DNA of 64,000 nt from Promethearchaeati archaeon (GTDB lineage: Archaea; Asgardarchaeota; Heimdallarchaeia; JABLTI01), in NCBI GenBank assembly GCA_013166835.1, contig JABLTI010000015.1, forward strand, positions 1 through 64,000, written 5' to 3'. Positions 14,500-21,147 of the stretch are shown here, piece after piece. The translations under genes and the position numbers were made by a program. The notes under the pieces were generated by a model. It ran no database searches, was not told the DNA's origin, and was given only the letters and a program-made list of their open reading frames with translations. Each line of letters starts with the position of its first letter. The stretch's first letter is position 1.

Positions 14500-17445
14500 A
14501 TGAAACGTGGAAAAATCCTCTCGATTTGTCTATTATCACTATTTATTTTCTCAGCTGCAATACCATTTGTATTATCAAAAGCGGATTTTACAAATGTTAC
14601 AGTTCCGGAAACGCTAATCTATAAAAAAACAACTTATGATTTAAATGGCGATAAAATTGATGATAAACTATTGAGAGATGTCAAAAGGAGTAGAAGTATG
14701 TTTATGGAAGCTATCTTGCTCTACGAACATGAGATATCTTCAAGAGATAGAAATCGATTAGATCAATTAGGCGTTATACATTCTGAAGAAACTTGGGATC
14801 TAGGAAGAAGAGTGGTAATCTCTGCAAATAAAGATAGACTTGACTTGATTGCTGGTCTACCAGGTGTTTCTTTAGTAACTACAGCTGAATTAAGATATAT
14901 TATGATTGCCATAAAGGGTGAGGATTTCTCCGATTTATCTGCTTTAGAAAAATATGACGGATCGGAAATTTTTTGGGGTGTTGGTTGCGCATTAGTTCCT
15001 CATTATTCTGGTGTTGAAACTGATATAGCGCGATTAGGAGATTATACTGTAATTTCTGATACAACAGATATCAAACTATATCCAGACGTAATAAAGGAAG
15101 ATAATATTATTTTAAACCCAGATTCACAAATATCAGCTGATGCAATTAATGCTTCAGTAATGTGGTCCTTAGGTTATGATGGGACTGGAATAAAAGTAGG
15201 TGTAATAGATACTGGGATTAATGCTGTTCATCCTGCTTTTGAAGGCAGAGTAGATGATGCTTTAAGTTTTGTTTCAACAATTTATGGTTATGATTATAAT
15301 GATCCAACAACAACAGATCCAAATGGTCATGGTTCTCATACTTCTGGAATTGTTGGTGCAGGTGATACAGCTGTTACCAGAGTTGGGATAGCTAAAAATT
15401 GTAGTATTTATCATGCAAAAATTGGTTCACCAGCTCCTTTACCATCAATAATAGCTGGCCTTGATTGGTTAGTAAACACAAGTAATGTAGATGTAATTAA
15501 TTTTAGTTTTGGTGGCGGTGATGGTGTAGGTCTTGATCCGCTTGAAATTGCATTTTACAACGCAGTTCATATTAAAGGAGTGGTCTGTGCAACTTCTGCA
15601 GGTAATGAGGGTAATCAAGGGTTCTATACAGTTGGTTCCCCAGCTACAGATGATATAATTCATGTTGGTGGGGTTGTTGCTACTGGTGGACCTCCAAGTA
15701 TTATATCTTATAGTTCACGTGGTCCTACTGCTGATGATCATATGAAACCCGATGTATTAGCACCAGGTTATTTGATTGATTCATGTGATAATATAGGTAC
15801 AGGTTATGTTACAATGAGTGGTACTTCTATGGCTTCACCTCACGTTGCAGGAGCAGCAGCGTTACTTATTGATGCTTGTATAGCAAATGGTTATGCAGTA
15901 AATCCTGGTTTGGTAAAAGCTGCTTTGATGAAGACCGCTACACCACTTGGTTCTGTTCACATATTAACTCAAGCTAGAGGTGTTATCAACGTTGGTGCTG
16001 CTTGGCATTATATTAAAACTGCTATCACTGATAATGGGATCAAAGTCGTTGGTGCTTGTAATCCAGTACAACAACCACTACCTTGGTGGTCAACAATGTT
16101 ACAAGGGCAAGTAACTGAACAATACTTAACTTGTATTTCTGCTCACAAAACTGATCTTTCTTTAGAATTGAGTGGAGATGTAGCATCTTTTGTCACAATT
16201 GGATCATTCAGTAATCAATGGACAAATGTTGTGAAGGTTACCTATGACGTTCCAATTGACGCAACTATAGGATCTTATACAGGGACATTGACTTTCAAAT
16301 ATTTGACAAACGTACTTGATACTGTAGATATTGTTCTGACGGTAACTGAGAGTAATGGTCACAATATGCTTCTAAACTTTAAAACTACAGATTATAGTAT
16401 TGATCACATGTATGGTCAATATGCGATTTTCACTCAAGATATCTTAACGAATGATTATGTAATAAGCGAACAACTTGCTGATTTAGATTCCGGAATAATA
16501 GAAAATTATGATTGTATCTGGTTACCAGATCCATTTGATTTAGTTTATCCGAATTCTTATGAAGGAGATTACAATATTGTTGAGACTTATAATGAATGGA
16601 CAGCGAGTGAAAAAACAGCTTTAACTAACTATGTAGCATTAGGGGGTTCTGTTTTCCTTTGTTTCCTTGGTTATAGTGAAACAGATGTTGATGGGTGGGG
16701 ACCAGTTTTACATGGTACAAATGTCTCTGCTATCAATGACTGGACTAACCAATATGGAATAAATATTAGCGATTCCTTATGGACAGGTTCTTATCCAATT
16801 ACAGTGGATACAACAGAATCACATGCATTATCAATTGGAGTTGAAAGCATTGATCATTGGGGTACTTCAATTGAAGTATCAGGTAATGCTGTTCAAATTA
16901 CAGAATTAACTCCTGGTTCACAATATGCTACTTGCGCTACTTACCAACATGAAAGCGGTGGAAGAGTTATTGTCTTGACTACAAACTTCTGTCTAGATAC
17001 TTCTGGCTATATAAACGATTATAATACTGGTACACAAAACGATCAATTTGGTCAAAATCTAGTTAGATGGGCAACAGCTCACTCAAGGATGTCTAGAAAC
17101 ACTATATCATTTACTGACCAATATGCAATATTACGCTACGATTTTATTTCAGGAACTGAAACTTTTGGTGGATATGTTATAGACCCAGATGATAATCAAG
17201 AGGATTTGGTTTGGACAGAAATTGCTCCTGATACTTGGGAAGTAAATTACGAAATGACTAGCGAAGGAATTTATGAATTCTATCCCGAGTGTGGTGAAGT
17301 TGGTTTAGATGATTACGACTACATTAAATACCTAAACGGAGAACTCCTCTCATCAACAAATGGAATTTCAATTATCGTTGTAGCAATAATCTCTGGTTTT
17401 GGTTTAGCTGCATGGACACTTATTCAAAAATTCAGACGAAAATAG
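14500..17445 (+). CDS. secreted subtilisin-like (S8) serine protease with C-terminal membrane anchor
   Basis: Catalytic motifs VGVIDTGINAVHP, GHGSHTSGIVG, GTSMASPHVAGAAAL; signal peptide; C-terminal TM followed by KFRRK. Confidence 0.95.
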   Translation: MKRGKILSICLLSLFIFSAAIPFVLSKADFTNVTVPETLIYKKTTYDLNGDKIDDKLLRDVKRSRSMFMEAILLYEHEISSRDRNRLDQLGVIHSEETWDLGRRVVISANKDRLDLIAGLPGVSLVTTAELRYIMIAIKGEDFSDLSALEKYDGSEIFWGVGCALVPHYSGVETDIARLGDYTVISDTTDIKLYPDVIKEDNIILNPDSQISADAINASVMWSLGYDGTGIKVGVIDTGINAVHPAFEGRVDDALSFVSTIYGYDYNDPTTTDPNGHGSHTSGIVGAGDTAVTRVGIAKNCSIYHAKIGSPAPLPSIIAGLDWLVNTSNVDVINFSFGGGDGVGLDPLEIAFYNAVHIKGVVCATSAGNEGNQGFYTVGSPATDDIIHVGGVVATGGPPSIISYSSRGPTADDHMKPDVLAPGYLIDSCDNIGTGYVTMSGTSMASPHVAGAAALLIDACIANGYAVNPGLVKAALMKTATPLGSVHILTQARGVINVGAAWHYIKTAITDNGIKVVGACNPVQQPLPWWSTMLQGQVTEQYLTCISAHKTDLSLELSGDVASFVTIGSFSNQWTNVVKVTYDVPIDATIGSYTGTLTFKYLTNVLDTVDIVLTVTESNGHNMLLNFKTTDYSIDHMYGQYAIFTQDILTNDYVISEQLADLDSGIIENYDCIWLPDPFDLVYPNSYEGDYNIVETYNEWTASEKTALTNYVALGGSVFLCFLGYSETDVDGWGPVLHGTNVSAINDWTNQYGINISDSLWTGSYPITVDTTESHALSIGVESIDHWGTSIEVSGNAVQITELTPGSQYATCATYQHESGGRVIVLTTNFCLDTSGYINDYNTGTQNDQFGQNLVRWATAHSRMSRNTISFTDQYAILRYDFISGTETFGGYVIDPDDNQEDLVWTEIAPDTWEVNYEMTSEGIYEFYPECGEVGLDDYDYIKYLNGELLSSTNGISIIVVAIISGFGLAAWTLIQKFRRK

Positions 17446-17509: not shown

Positions 17510-17644
17510 TTCCTTGATTTTCTTTCAATTTATTTGGAAAATTGCCACAAAAAAAAGCTTTTTACATCAACCGTAGCACTTAATAAAGTTGTATAATAAC
17601 TTTATTCGAATACTATTTAACAAATAATAAGGAGAAAAAAAACG

Positions 17645-18007
17645 ATGTCATTTGAAAACGAAGCTGCACGGTTACAGAAAAATGGGGTTATTGGAGCGCT
17701 TGCTTTAGTTGGAGCTGATGGAAAGGTCTATTGGACAACACAGAACTGGCAAGTTGATGGGGTAACAATAATTGAAGCATGGACTAAAAAAGCTCCCTGG
17801 ATAGTGGTTCAAGGAGTCAAATATTCTACAATTGACATTACAAGTAGTCGTTTGGTTTGTACCAATGTTCAGCAACAAGGTCATATAGTAATCGCAAAAA
17901 CTCCTTTCTGGCAAGGATTTATCATGGCTTGGTGTTCTCCAGCGAATCCTGTACGAATGGCCTATGTTGACATAGCAAAATTAGCTGGTACAGTTAAACC
18001 AGGGTAG
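17645..18007 (+). CDS. profilin-like protein (Asgard profilin)
   Basis: 120 aa; N-terminal GVIGALALVGADGKVYWTT, then GVKYSTIDITSSRLVCTNVQQQGHIVIAKTPFWQGFIMAWCSPANPVRMAYVDIAKLAG, which follows the profilin pattern GxKYxxI...xGKKGxGGIxIxKTxxALIIGIYxxPxxPxQxNxxVExLGDYL. Confidence 0.75.
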   Translation: MSFENEAARLQKNGVIGALALVGADGKVYWTTQNWQVDGVTIIEAWTKKAPWIVVQGVKYSTIDITSSRLVCTNVQQQGHIVIAKTPFWQGFIMAWCSPANPVRMAYVDIAKLAGTVKPG

Positions 18008-18020
18008 TATTATTTGAAAT

Positions 18021-18039
18021 GATTCTCTCACTGAGAATC
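18021..18039 (+). terminator. hairpin downstream of the profilin-like gene
   Basis: GATTCTC(18021-27)/GAGAATC(18033-39), then T-rich tract. Confidence 0.45.
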
Positions 18040-18081
18040 TTAAAATCTCTTTATTCTTATTAAACAGAATTAGTTGTAAGG

Positions 18082-21000
18082 TTAGTCCGAGAACATATTT
18101 TGAGCTGGGGCATCATGAGTTTTAGTAAAAATCGTTCCCTTTTCTACTACTTGAATAGTTGAGAGATCAAAACCAGTCACATTCATTCTTGAGAGGAGTT
18201 TGCCATAATCAGCAAGTGATTGAACTTTTCTACCAACAATTAATGTTTTCAATATGTTGTGCGAACATAATGAATCCTTGAGATCAACTCCTATTGTTCC
18301 CATAACTGATTGAGAAATATCAGACATTATCTCTTTTTCTACAGTTGCATTTGAAAATAGAACCACAATCTCTCTTGAGAGTTTTTCGCTAACTAATATA
18401 ACTGGGTGATCAGATAAAGATAATCCAAGACAGGTTCCTATATGTCTTCCACTTAAAGTTCTAACTCTTAAACACTCTAAAGGAAATATTTCTGATGGAC
18501 GGAATGTCCGGGAAGAATTTCTAAGTATAACTTTATTTTTAGTTATTTTATCAATGGATCCTCCTGATATAAATATCCTAAATGAATTCAAAATCTCATT
18601 AGGTAAGATGGGGAATCCTCGATTTAAAGAGTAATTAATTAATGTTTTAGGCTTTAATGCTTCGCCTTCAGGAATCTTCAATTGTTTAGCAATTAAGTAC
18701 TTTACCAGCCACATTTTCTCTTTTGTCTTTTCTTCTGTAATATTTAGTCTATTTACTAAGTAATCGATAAGAGTATTATCTGGTTCTTCTTTATCTAAAA
18801 GAAGTAGTTTACCCATTAATGGATGTAAAACAGCTGCAATGACTTTTCCAATTTTAACTCCATGACTCAAATAACAGTATTTTCCTACTGGAGATTTATC
18901 TGCTGTTCCGATTTGCCCATCCCATGGTGCAGTTCTATATGGCTGAGAAGCTAGTATGCTATCTGGACTACAGATAATAGATCCTCTTTTGATTCGAATT
19001 TTATCTACTGGTATGATACCTATTATTTCAGGAACTGGTCTTACCTCACCTTTTGGAAAGTTAACATTTCTGAAGTTTGCAAATTCTTGCAGTCTTGTTA
19101 TATGTAATGCTACATCTTTTTGAACTTGAAGTGATTCCATAACTTCTCGAATAACATAGTTTTTGCGTTTTTCTGCTGATTCAGTTAATTCCTCTGTTAT
19201 CCAGAGGGGTTTTATTTGATCAAATATTTTATCAATTATACTTTGATTTGCTTCTGTTTCTGTTACTAATATGAAACCAAGACGATTATTTCCATAAACG
19301 ACAACTTCTTGTAGATATCCTAAGAATTCTCTTTTGGTATCTTCGAGTAAATTGAAAAGTGCTTTACCAGATAATTTCCACGCTTCTGATGCTGCTTCTA
19401 ACAGTTTAGGAGATACCATTGTTTCCTTCGTTGGTTTAATTAATTGTTCTTCTTCTTTTTCTGGAATTTTTATTTCTTCTTCTACTGCTGCTTCTTGTTG
19501 AACAATTTCGGGAATCGGTTCTGTTTCAGATATAATTTCGTCTGATACAGACAATTCAGGTGGAGGAGGTGGTGGTGGTAGAGTTTGTTGGGGGGGTGGT
19601 GGTGGGGGAAGAACATCTGGTTCTGTAGGAATGGATGGTATTTCAATTACTTGAGCTTCCTTTATCTCAGGAATAATCTCTATATTATCTGTATCTATTT
19701 TAATAAGCTCTTCAGGAGCCATTGGTTCAATTTCAGAAACAATAGTTAGATCTTTAGTTAGTTCAGATAAGCTACCTGAATCATCAATTTGATCTTCAGC
19801 GGAACCGCGACTTGTATCTACTGTTTTTTTGAGATCAGATGATAAACTACTAAACTGAGCTTTTGTTTTGGGAGTTTCTTTCTCGACTTCAACTGATTTT
19901 ACTGTGCTTGTTTCTACTTCGTCTTCTCCGATTAATTTTGATAATAAACCCTCAAAAGATTGAAAGATAATTTGTTCTGTTAAATTATTTAATCTTGCTT
20001 TAGAACCATTTATTTCAAAAGGTAAAGTAAAGTCTTCCATCCCAATAATTTCAAGTTCAACTACTGGTTCATAGACTGGTTGAGGAGTCTCGGGAATTAT
20101 TAATGAATCCGACGGTTGGACCATTTCTTCATCAACAAGCTCAAACTCCTCAATTAAAGAGGAATCTGTTGTGTCTATTAAGAAATAACTGATAGGATCA
20201 TCTATCTGTCTCTCAAATTCTATTGTTTCAATTAAGGAATCAATCGCTTTTTTCTTCTCAACTAATTCTTTAGTTTCTTCCGGAGCAATTTCCAAACCAA
20301 ATTGTTCTGGCATAAATAAATCATGAGAATCATCAATCACTAGTATGTCTTTCTGTAAGAGGTTTAAACAGTTGCAATAATCCTTAATATCTTCTGATAG
20401 AATTTTGATATAATCTTTTAATTCATTAACTGATTGTTGAAAATCTAGTAATGATTTAAAATCAGGCAAACCATTTCTAGCAGTTGAAGTACTAATTTCT
20501 AACTGAGTTGTTTTCACAGTGGCCAACAATTCAGCAATTGCTTTGCGATATTCTTTACGTATCTCAATTTCATGAGTGAGTTCACGTGAGAGTTGCTTCA
20601 ATTCAGCTTCGGTTTCCACTCCATGTCCGTAAGAAAACTTTAGATAATTCTCCAGTGTAAATTTCACTAATTCACCCTTTGATGGGTTTCTCTTCAGATA
20701 TTTTTCTCGAGCACCAAATCTATTTTGTGCTAACCGAAGATCAAATTCAAGTGTTTCAATTTTTATGTTTGCAGTATCCGGATTCACTTTTTTCTCAGCA
20801 ATCAGAATATTTAATTTCTGCATGTTGTGATTTAGATTTCTTATGTTTCTTGCAAGTTCTTGAATTTCTCTTCTTATTTTAAGATGTCTAAAGAATGTTC
20901 GAGGGACATTAAATGTTGGTAATAAATCCTCAATAGAGATTTTGCCAACCAAACTATTTGCACTCAAAGGAATTTCTCTTGCATTTATTGCATCCTTTAA

Positions 21001-21147
21001 TTCATCATCAGTTGGAGCACTTACTGCGAATAGTTGTTTTTCTAGGATTTGCATTTTATTTTCAAAAATTTCAGAATCAATTTCCTCAAGAGCGTATTGC
21101 TTTTCAATTTCCATTATCTCTTTAAGGATATCAATTCTAGTTCGCAT
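18082..21147 (-). CDS. 1021-aa coiled-coil protein with polyproline tracts and possible PRC-barrel-like C-terminal segments
   Basis: Long heptad-like N-terminal region; DVLPPPPPPQQTLPPPPPPPELS (DNA about 19558-19612); C-terminal GRHIGTCLGLSLSDHPVILVSE resembles PRC-barrel strands. Confidence 0.8.
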   Translation of the reverse strand: MRTRIDILKEIMEIEKQYALEEIDSEIFENKMQILEKQLFAVSAPTDDELKDAINAREIPLSANSLVGKISIEDLLPTFNVPRTFFRHLKIRREIQELARNIRNLNHNMQKLNILIAEKKVNPDTANIKIETLEFDLRLAQNRFGAREKYLKRNPSKGELVKFTLENYLKFSYGHGVETEAELKQLSRELTHEIEIRKEYRKAIAELLATVKTTQLEISTSTARNGLPDFKSLLDFQQSVNELKDYIKILSEDIKDYCNCLNLLQKDILVIDDSHDLFMPEQFGLEIAPEETKELVEKKKAIDSLIETIEFERQIDDPISYFLIDTTDSSLIEEFELVDEEMVQPSDSLIIPETPQPVYEPVVELEIIGMEDFTLPFEINGSKARLNNLTEQIIFQSFEGLLSKLIGEDEVETSTVKSVEVEKETPKTKAQFSSLSSDLKKTVDTSRGSAEDQIDDSGSLSELTKDLTIVSEIEPMAPEELIKIDTDNIEIIPEIKEAQVIEIPSIPTEPDVLPPPPPPQQTLPPPPPPPELSVSDEIISETEPIPEIVQQEAAVEEEIKIPEKEEEQLIKPTKETMVSPKLLEAASEAWKLSGKALFNLLEDTKREFLGYLQEVVVYGNNRLGFILVTETEANQSIIDKIFDQIKPLWITEELTESAEKRKNYVIREVMESLQVQKDVALHITRLQEFANFRNVNFPKGEVRPVPEIIGIIPVDKIRIKRGSIICSPDSILASQPYRTAPWDGQIGTADKSPVGKYCYLSHGVKIGKVIAAVLHPLMGKLLLLDKEEPDNTLIDYLVNRLNITEEKTKEKMWLVKYLIAKQLKIPEGEALKPKTLINYSLNRGFPILPNEILNSFRIFISGGSIDKITKNKVILRNSSRTFRPSEIFPLECLRVRTLSGRHIGTCLGLSLSDHPVILVSEKLSREIVVLFSNATVEKEIMSDISQSVMGTIGVDLKDSLCSHNILKTLIVGRKVQSLADYGKLLSRMNVTGFDLSTIQVVEKGTIFTKTHDAPAQNMFSD

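Follow-up and report, generated by a model that had tools for sequence, protein, structure and literature searches.

A profilin gene and its adjacent partner, a protein with polyproline tracts and a predicted PRC-barrel-like module, in Heimdallarchaeia

A genuine profilin gene in a Heimdallarchaeia genome lies next to a gene for a 1021-residue protein, here called BIG, that carries two long polyproline tracts, and the two genes remain neighbours beyond the genus. We judge it somewhat probable that they are functionally linked. The window analyzed is a stretch of 64,000 nucleotides from contig JABLTI010000015.1 (assembly GCA_013166835.1; completeness 85%, contamination 6.8%). A sequence-only reading of it had described a profilin-like gene convergent with a polyproline coiled-coil protein, and had suggested that the pair might be a profilin and its native ligand, analogous to a formin/VASP arrangement.

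It is disputed whether profilin came under polyproline control before eukaryotes existed, and a profilin with a binder-type tryptophan beside a protein with Pro6 and Pro7 tracts provides a native pair for a direct test of a pre-eukaryotic origin. Asgard profilins and their weak binding of polyproline were already known. A search limited to open-licence papers in PMC found neither a native archaeal polyproline ligand of profilin nor the PRC-barrel-like partner family.

Profilin and its polyproline face

Both open reading frames were present and convergent at the positions given by the sequence-only reading. The profilin gene (17645..18007, + strand) encodes 120 residues without an N-terminal extension. 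GGAG, a ribosome-binding-like motif, stands ten bases before its ATG (17631..17634, + strand), and only 8 further codons would be possible in the open frame upstream of the start. A spacer of 74 bp (18008..18081) separates its stop codon from that of the BIG gene (18082..21147, - strand), which is present in 9/9 genomes of the genus. A true actin (2.3e-134) is encoded in the same genome, together with a second protein related to actin. Across most of the genus profilin is adjoined by a subtilase gene (Peptidase_S8, 3e-44; 14500-17445 in the window, + strand), the product of which also matches, below threshold, the fourth GATase-like domain in the eukaryotic site-1 protease MBTPS1.

The small protein is a genuine Asgard profilin. 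Its best phmmer match among solved Asgard profilins was OdinProfilin (5zza_P, 6e-22). The Pfam Profilin score was 20.2 bits, under the cut-off of 25, which was derived mainly from eukaryotic sequences; we assign the protein to the profilins despite this score because fold and Asgard relatives decide the matter. The AlphaFold model, for which 27 Asgard sequences served as input, reached a pLDDT of 92.1 and has N- and C-terminal helices (residues 3-12 and 103-114) packed on a beta sheet. When the protein was compared with the PDB by Foldseek, ranks 1-42 were all profilins and the first roadblock protein was ranked 43, with OdinProfilin (5ZZA) matching at 3.9e-12, TM 0.87 and 42% identity as the closest solved relative. 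A roadblock or longin identity, named as the alternative by the earlier reading, was ruled out by sequence and fold.

Human profilin contacts polyproline through W31 and the C-terminal aromatics H133 and Y139. For heimProfilin (Heimdallarchaeota LC3, 6YRR), polyproline binding has been mapped to residues including G49, Y52 and W53, which shift upon binding (Survery et al., PMC8410842). These residues align with G26, Y29 and W30 of the window profilin (codons for GKVYW, 17720..17734, + strand). W30 is present in 9/9 genus profilins, and Y29 is replaced by H in three of them (G001, G007, G008). Among the solved profilins the position of W30 is occupied by W in heimProfilin and thorProfilin (7PBH), by Y in OdinProfilin and by T in LokiProfilin-1 and -2; OdinProfilin also has I in place of Y29 and L in place of F3. 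The first two are polyproline binders and the other three are reported non-binders; with a VASP peptide, binding was weak for the Heimdall LC3 and Thor profilins and was not seen for those of Loki and Odin (PMC8410842 and work cited therein).

Removal of the N-terminal extension improved the KD of heimProfilin for polyproline from 3.3 to 0.3 mM, and heimProfilin and thorProfilin without it bind VASP polyproline with a KD of about 0.2-0.5 mM (PMC8410842). The window profilin, which has the same fold as these two and is 26-27% identical to them in the fold alignment, lacks the extension and starts where their better-binding, extension-deleted forms start. Its last 12 residues (DIAKLAGTVKPG) contain no aromatic, as is also true of the aligned end of the binder thorProfilin, and its C-terminus has no equivalent of human H133/Y139; the corresponding contact of heimProfilin is F147. 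Judged by sequence at the aligned positions, the window profilin is of the type that would be expected to bind polyproline. Whereas the published ligand of heimProfilin and thorProfilin is a VASP peptide, a candidate native polyproline protein is encoded beside the window profilin.

Conservation of the gene pair

Profilin and the partner module were located in Asgard genomes and the neighbourhoods were then inspected. Within Heimdallarchaeia, the pair was convergent in 9/9 genomes of the window's own genus (family f1), with a gap of 52-74 bp. In a second family, f2, which includes Ca. Heimdallarchaeum endolithica PR6, it was adjacent and divergent in 16 of the 21 decidable genomes (G009, G014, G018, G020, G025, G029, G031, G037, G040, G042, G044, G046, G047, G048, G056 and G059) and not adjacent in five (G033, G038, G039, G049, G058); three more (G021, G051, G054) were undecidable owing to a contig end or because no profilin was found. 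One f2 subclade (L119, L121, L176) has two small genes (~232 and 186-201 aa) directly after the partner, and these are the two genes that separate partner from profilin in G039.

Outside the class, the module was detected at E<=1e-8 in G066 and G069 only, and in both it adjoins profilin, convergent in the former and co-directional in the latter. The search profile included G069, whose homologue is also recovered at 1.1e-29 with the window protein as the only query; the G066 homologue was found with a profile built without G066. Recent joint transfer was rejected as the origin of the G069 pair, as the G069 profilin is not nested in the genus, with both trees poorly resolved at depth. In family f3 a ~660-aa relative of the partner adjoins a YggU gene, away from profilin, and the module search returned no partner in families f4-f7, the genomes of which carry profilin (with Trp at position 30 in f4 and f6). 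A 934-1059-aa ORF beside the f3 profilin was considered as a diverged partner and rejected: the partner profile misses it, and by eye it is of methyltransferase type with NPPY-like motifs. The synteny that the sequence-only reading wished to see tested is thus borne out in f1 and, beyond the genus, in f2, G066 and G069, and does not extend to f3-f7.

Other genes also accompany profilin. YggU lies beside it in f2, f4, f9, f16, f18 and f20, which is more lineages than the partner, and an ATP-dependent DNA ligase is near it in many Asgard lineages. The name YggU/DUF167-like comes from reading the sequence by eye; profilin, this gene and DNA ligase form a conserved neighbourhood. A protein with an IFT52 GIFT domain is encoded near profilin and DNA ligase in f2 and G069 (L057:11280-12638 and L112:3891-4886; Pfam 5e-11 and 9e-14, above cut-off), so that G069 has profilin, ligase and GIFT together, like f2. 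The GIFT relative of the window genome is on another contig, beside a ligase-sized ORF, and carries IPPPPPPTT. In f1 and G066, YggU, DNA ligase and GIFT are absent beside profilin and the partner is still there.

Partner protein and its polyproline tracts

Searches of Pfam and NCBIfam assigned BIG to no curated family above cut-off, and Pox_A31, DUF4634 and CdvA were rejected as names since every score fell below cut-off (for the CdvA equivalog model, 9.4 bits against 350). FH2, WH1/EVH1 and WH2 domains were not found in BIG by Pfam, in keeping with the earlier statement that the protein has no recognisable FH2 or EVH domain. In the nine genus genomes FH2 stayed below the curated cut-off; FH2-like matches in four of them were sub-threshold, like the noise that the controls also gave, and were discarded. 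WW and WH1/EVH1 gave no matches across the genus, but the control genomes gave none either.

BIG proteins of the genus are 57-92% identical over their full length. Outside the genus, homology is confined to the first ~35 residues and to residues 579-1021. The former (residues 1-35; 21043..21147, - strand) comprise an N-terminal helix, its pattern R-I-x-x-L...G/E-x-I-D-x-x-x-Y/F being common to the f1, f2, G069 and G066 homologues. The latter form a C-terminal module of ~440 aa (18085..19413, - strand), which AlphaFold modelled with pLDDT 86 and pTM 0.83 as a repeated unit in which a helical bundle comes after a small beta-barrel, with three barrel-like units. Units 1 and 2 are repeats of each other (hhalign 1.2e-08), and unit 3 resembles unit 2 more weakly (0.0021). 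The best Foldseek matches of the module were CdpB1/CdpB2, followed by PRC1/PRC2, RimM and photosynthetic reaction-centre H, with CdvA lower; E-values ran from 0.02 to 5 (best 0.02-0.05), none reaching 0.001, and whole-module TM was low. Pfam PRC was matched sub-threshold in 3 of 15 family members (best E 0.28). We regard the PRC-barrel assignment as likely.

The description of the partner as a coiled coil was not upheld, as the heptad periodicity of hydrophobic residues in its N-terminal half (residues 75-270) did not exceed that of shuffled sequences, of which 80-268 per 1000 reached the observed power. BIG homologues have weak coiled-coil matches in Pfam. A ~536-aa paralogue of the C-terminal module, with a proline-rich linker of its own (KPPPPREEFVPPPHEEPIRPPP), is encoded in G005 (L125:4187-5791) and also in G006 and G008.

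Between the conserved parts lies a variable linker (residues 333-578, 246 residues; 19414..20151, - strand) with 12.2% Pro, against 3.9% elsewhere in BIG. It contains VLPPPPPPQQTLPPPPPPPELS, and the polyproline noted by the sequence-only reading is present there as Pro6 (residues 514-519, VLPPPPPPQQ; 19591..19608, - strand) and Pro7 (residues 524-530, TLPPPPPPPELS; 19558..19578, - strand). A run of seven prolines arose in 0/5000 shuffles of the linker, and the tracts are written in a mixture of CCA, CCC and CCT codons, with no pure trinucleotide repeat. Six consecutive CCN codons are found at just five places in the 3.56 Mb genome and yield four in-frame poly-Pro proteins, BIG being the sole one with two tracts.

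Proline runs of at least three residues vary greatly within the genus: G000 has 6 and 7, G006 4 and 7, G005 six runs (4, 6, 6, 5, 5, 6), G003 5, G001 4 and G004 3, with none in G007 and G008 (G002 was excluded, its sequence ending before the linker). Tracts of at least four prolines are therefore found in 5/8 members and in none outside the genus; there, two of the f2 homologues that were examined have a single PPP, and those of G066 and G069 have none. Runs exceeded linker shuffles in 5/8 members (reached by 0-47 of 5000). Because G005 groups in the partner tree with the G000/G006/G003/G004 clade, and because G000 and G005 have the arrangement L-P6-Q(Q)TL-P6/7 in common, the tracts are probably older than this clade and became weaker or disappeared in other members. 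That tract loss might be tied to the Y29H replacement in the profilins of G001, G007 and G008 was not counted as evidence, since these form one clade and represent a single event.

The conserved part of the partner is the N-terminal helix and the C-terminal module, not the polyproline. The idea that polyproline defines the pair is not supported: adjacency persists in G007, in G008 and outside the genus, where there are no such tracts, and polyproline cannot explain the older adjacency.

Role of the partner and other polyproline proteins

Retention of the pair through three orientations, and after other neighbours had left, favours a functional link. We tentatively propose, at somewhat less than even confidence, a docking model in which the scaffold is tied functionally to profilin and the linker of the genus has acquired profilin-binding tracts. 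Profilin would bind actin monomers, and the partner would be a cytoplasmic scaffold whose helical N-terminal part is joined by a long, flexible linker to an array of PRC-barrel-like units at the C-terminus. Both would serve the same actin-related process, which may be why the two genes have remained side by side while their relative orientation changed. In the genus, profilin would be held by its Y29/W30 face on the [L/I]PPPPP(P) tracts, with each contact weak and several made at once, and the scaffold would thereby gather profilin-actin at the site to which the PRC-barrel part is attached, the barrels providing anchoring or assembly. Multiple weak profilin sites could raise local profilin-actin in the manner of FH1 and VASP segments. 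The model is weakened by the many profilin-bearing families in which the partner is missing or unlinked, by the Trp at position 30 in f4 and f6 profilins from genomes without it, by the lack of counterparts to the C-terminal aromatics of human profilin and by the Foldseek E-values of 0.02-0.05 for the barrels.

BIG resembles the proline segments of formin FH1 and Ena/VASP proteins in having [L/I]PPPPP runs in a presumably disordered linker, but it differs from those proteins in being without FH2, EVH1 and WH2 and in its PRC-barrel-like C-terminal module. The proposed formin/VASP analogy stood as regards the missing FH2 and EVH1 domains and did not hold for the conserved part, the modelled fold of which resembles that of archaeal division proteins. 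A bolder version, in which FH1/VASP-like tracts are grafted on a division-protein-related PRC-barrel chassis and the partner recruits profilin so as to link the assembly of actin to the membrane or to sites of division, we regard as rather unlikely; were it true, an Asgard archaeon would regulate profilin through polyproline using components of its own. Whatever the tracts do, the BIG family adds a new candidate to the components of the actin system of Heimdallarchaeia, or of their division system.

It is quite possible, though we lean against it, that the two genes are old neighbours without shared function and that the tracts reflect composition drift of a fast-evolving linker. More lineages have YggU next to profilin than have the partner there, and neither YggU nor the ligase has an evident actin role, so the neighbourhood itself appears conservative and the adjacency of the pair may simply be inherited with it. 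The company of profilin, ligase and GIFT in G069 and the gain and loss of tracts within the genus agree with this explanation, which accounts less well for a pair that stays when those neighbours are gone, in the genus and in G066, and for proline runs that exceed linker shuffles in 5/8 members. A link through the PRC-barrel or helical parts, with the genus tracts binding a target other than profilin or merely stiffening the linker, would suit both the adjacency without tracts and the location of the conserved sequence; we think it unlikely, given a profilin with binder-type residues and a genus without a WW or WH1/EVH1 match, although the controls were silent too.

Division proteins offer a further explanation. 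CdpB1 and CdpB2, which stabilise the divisome (PMC12186497), and CdvA are archaeal division proteins with PRC barrels, and the BIG module is predicted to have a fold resembling theirs. CdvA was not detected in 39 genomes of the class, by a search in which the control matched in Sulfolobus. The partner might accordingly be a CdvA- or CdpB-like protein of cell division or the chromosome, unrelated to actin. This we consider improbable, as the fold likeness is weak (E 0.02) and BIG is far larger than these proteins, with three barrel-helix units behind a long proline-rich linker.

The other in-frame cases of six CCN codons in the genome are the GIFT-domain protein, a small Pro/Ala-rich protein and a TM2-like zinc-ribbon protein. 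The last belongs to a tandem pair (G000:C143:2596-3604, L114) with PPPP and PPPPPP before the ribbon, which is another possible polyproline ligand in the same genome.
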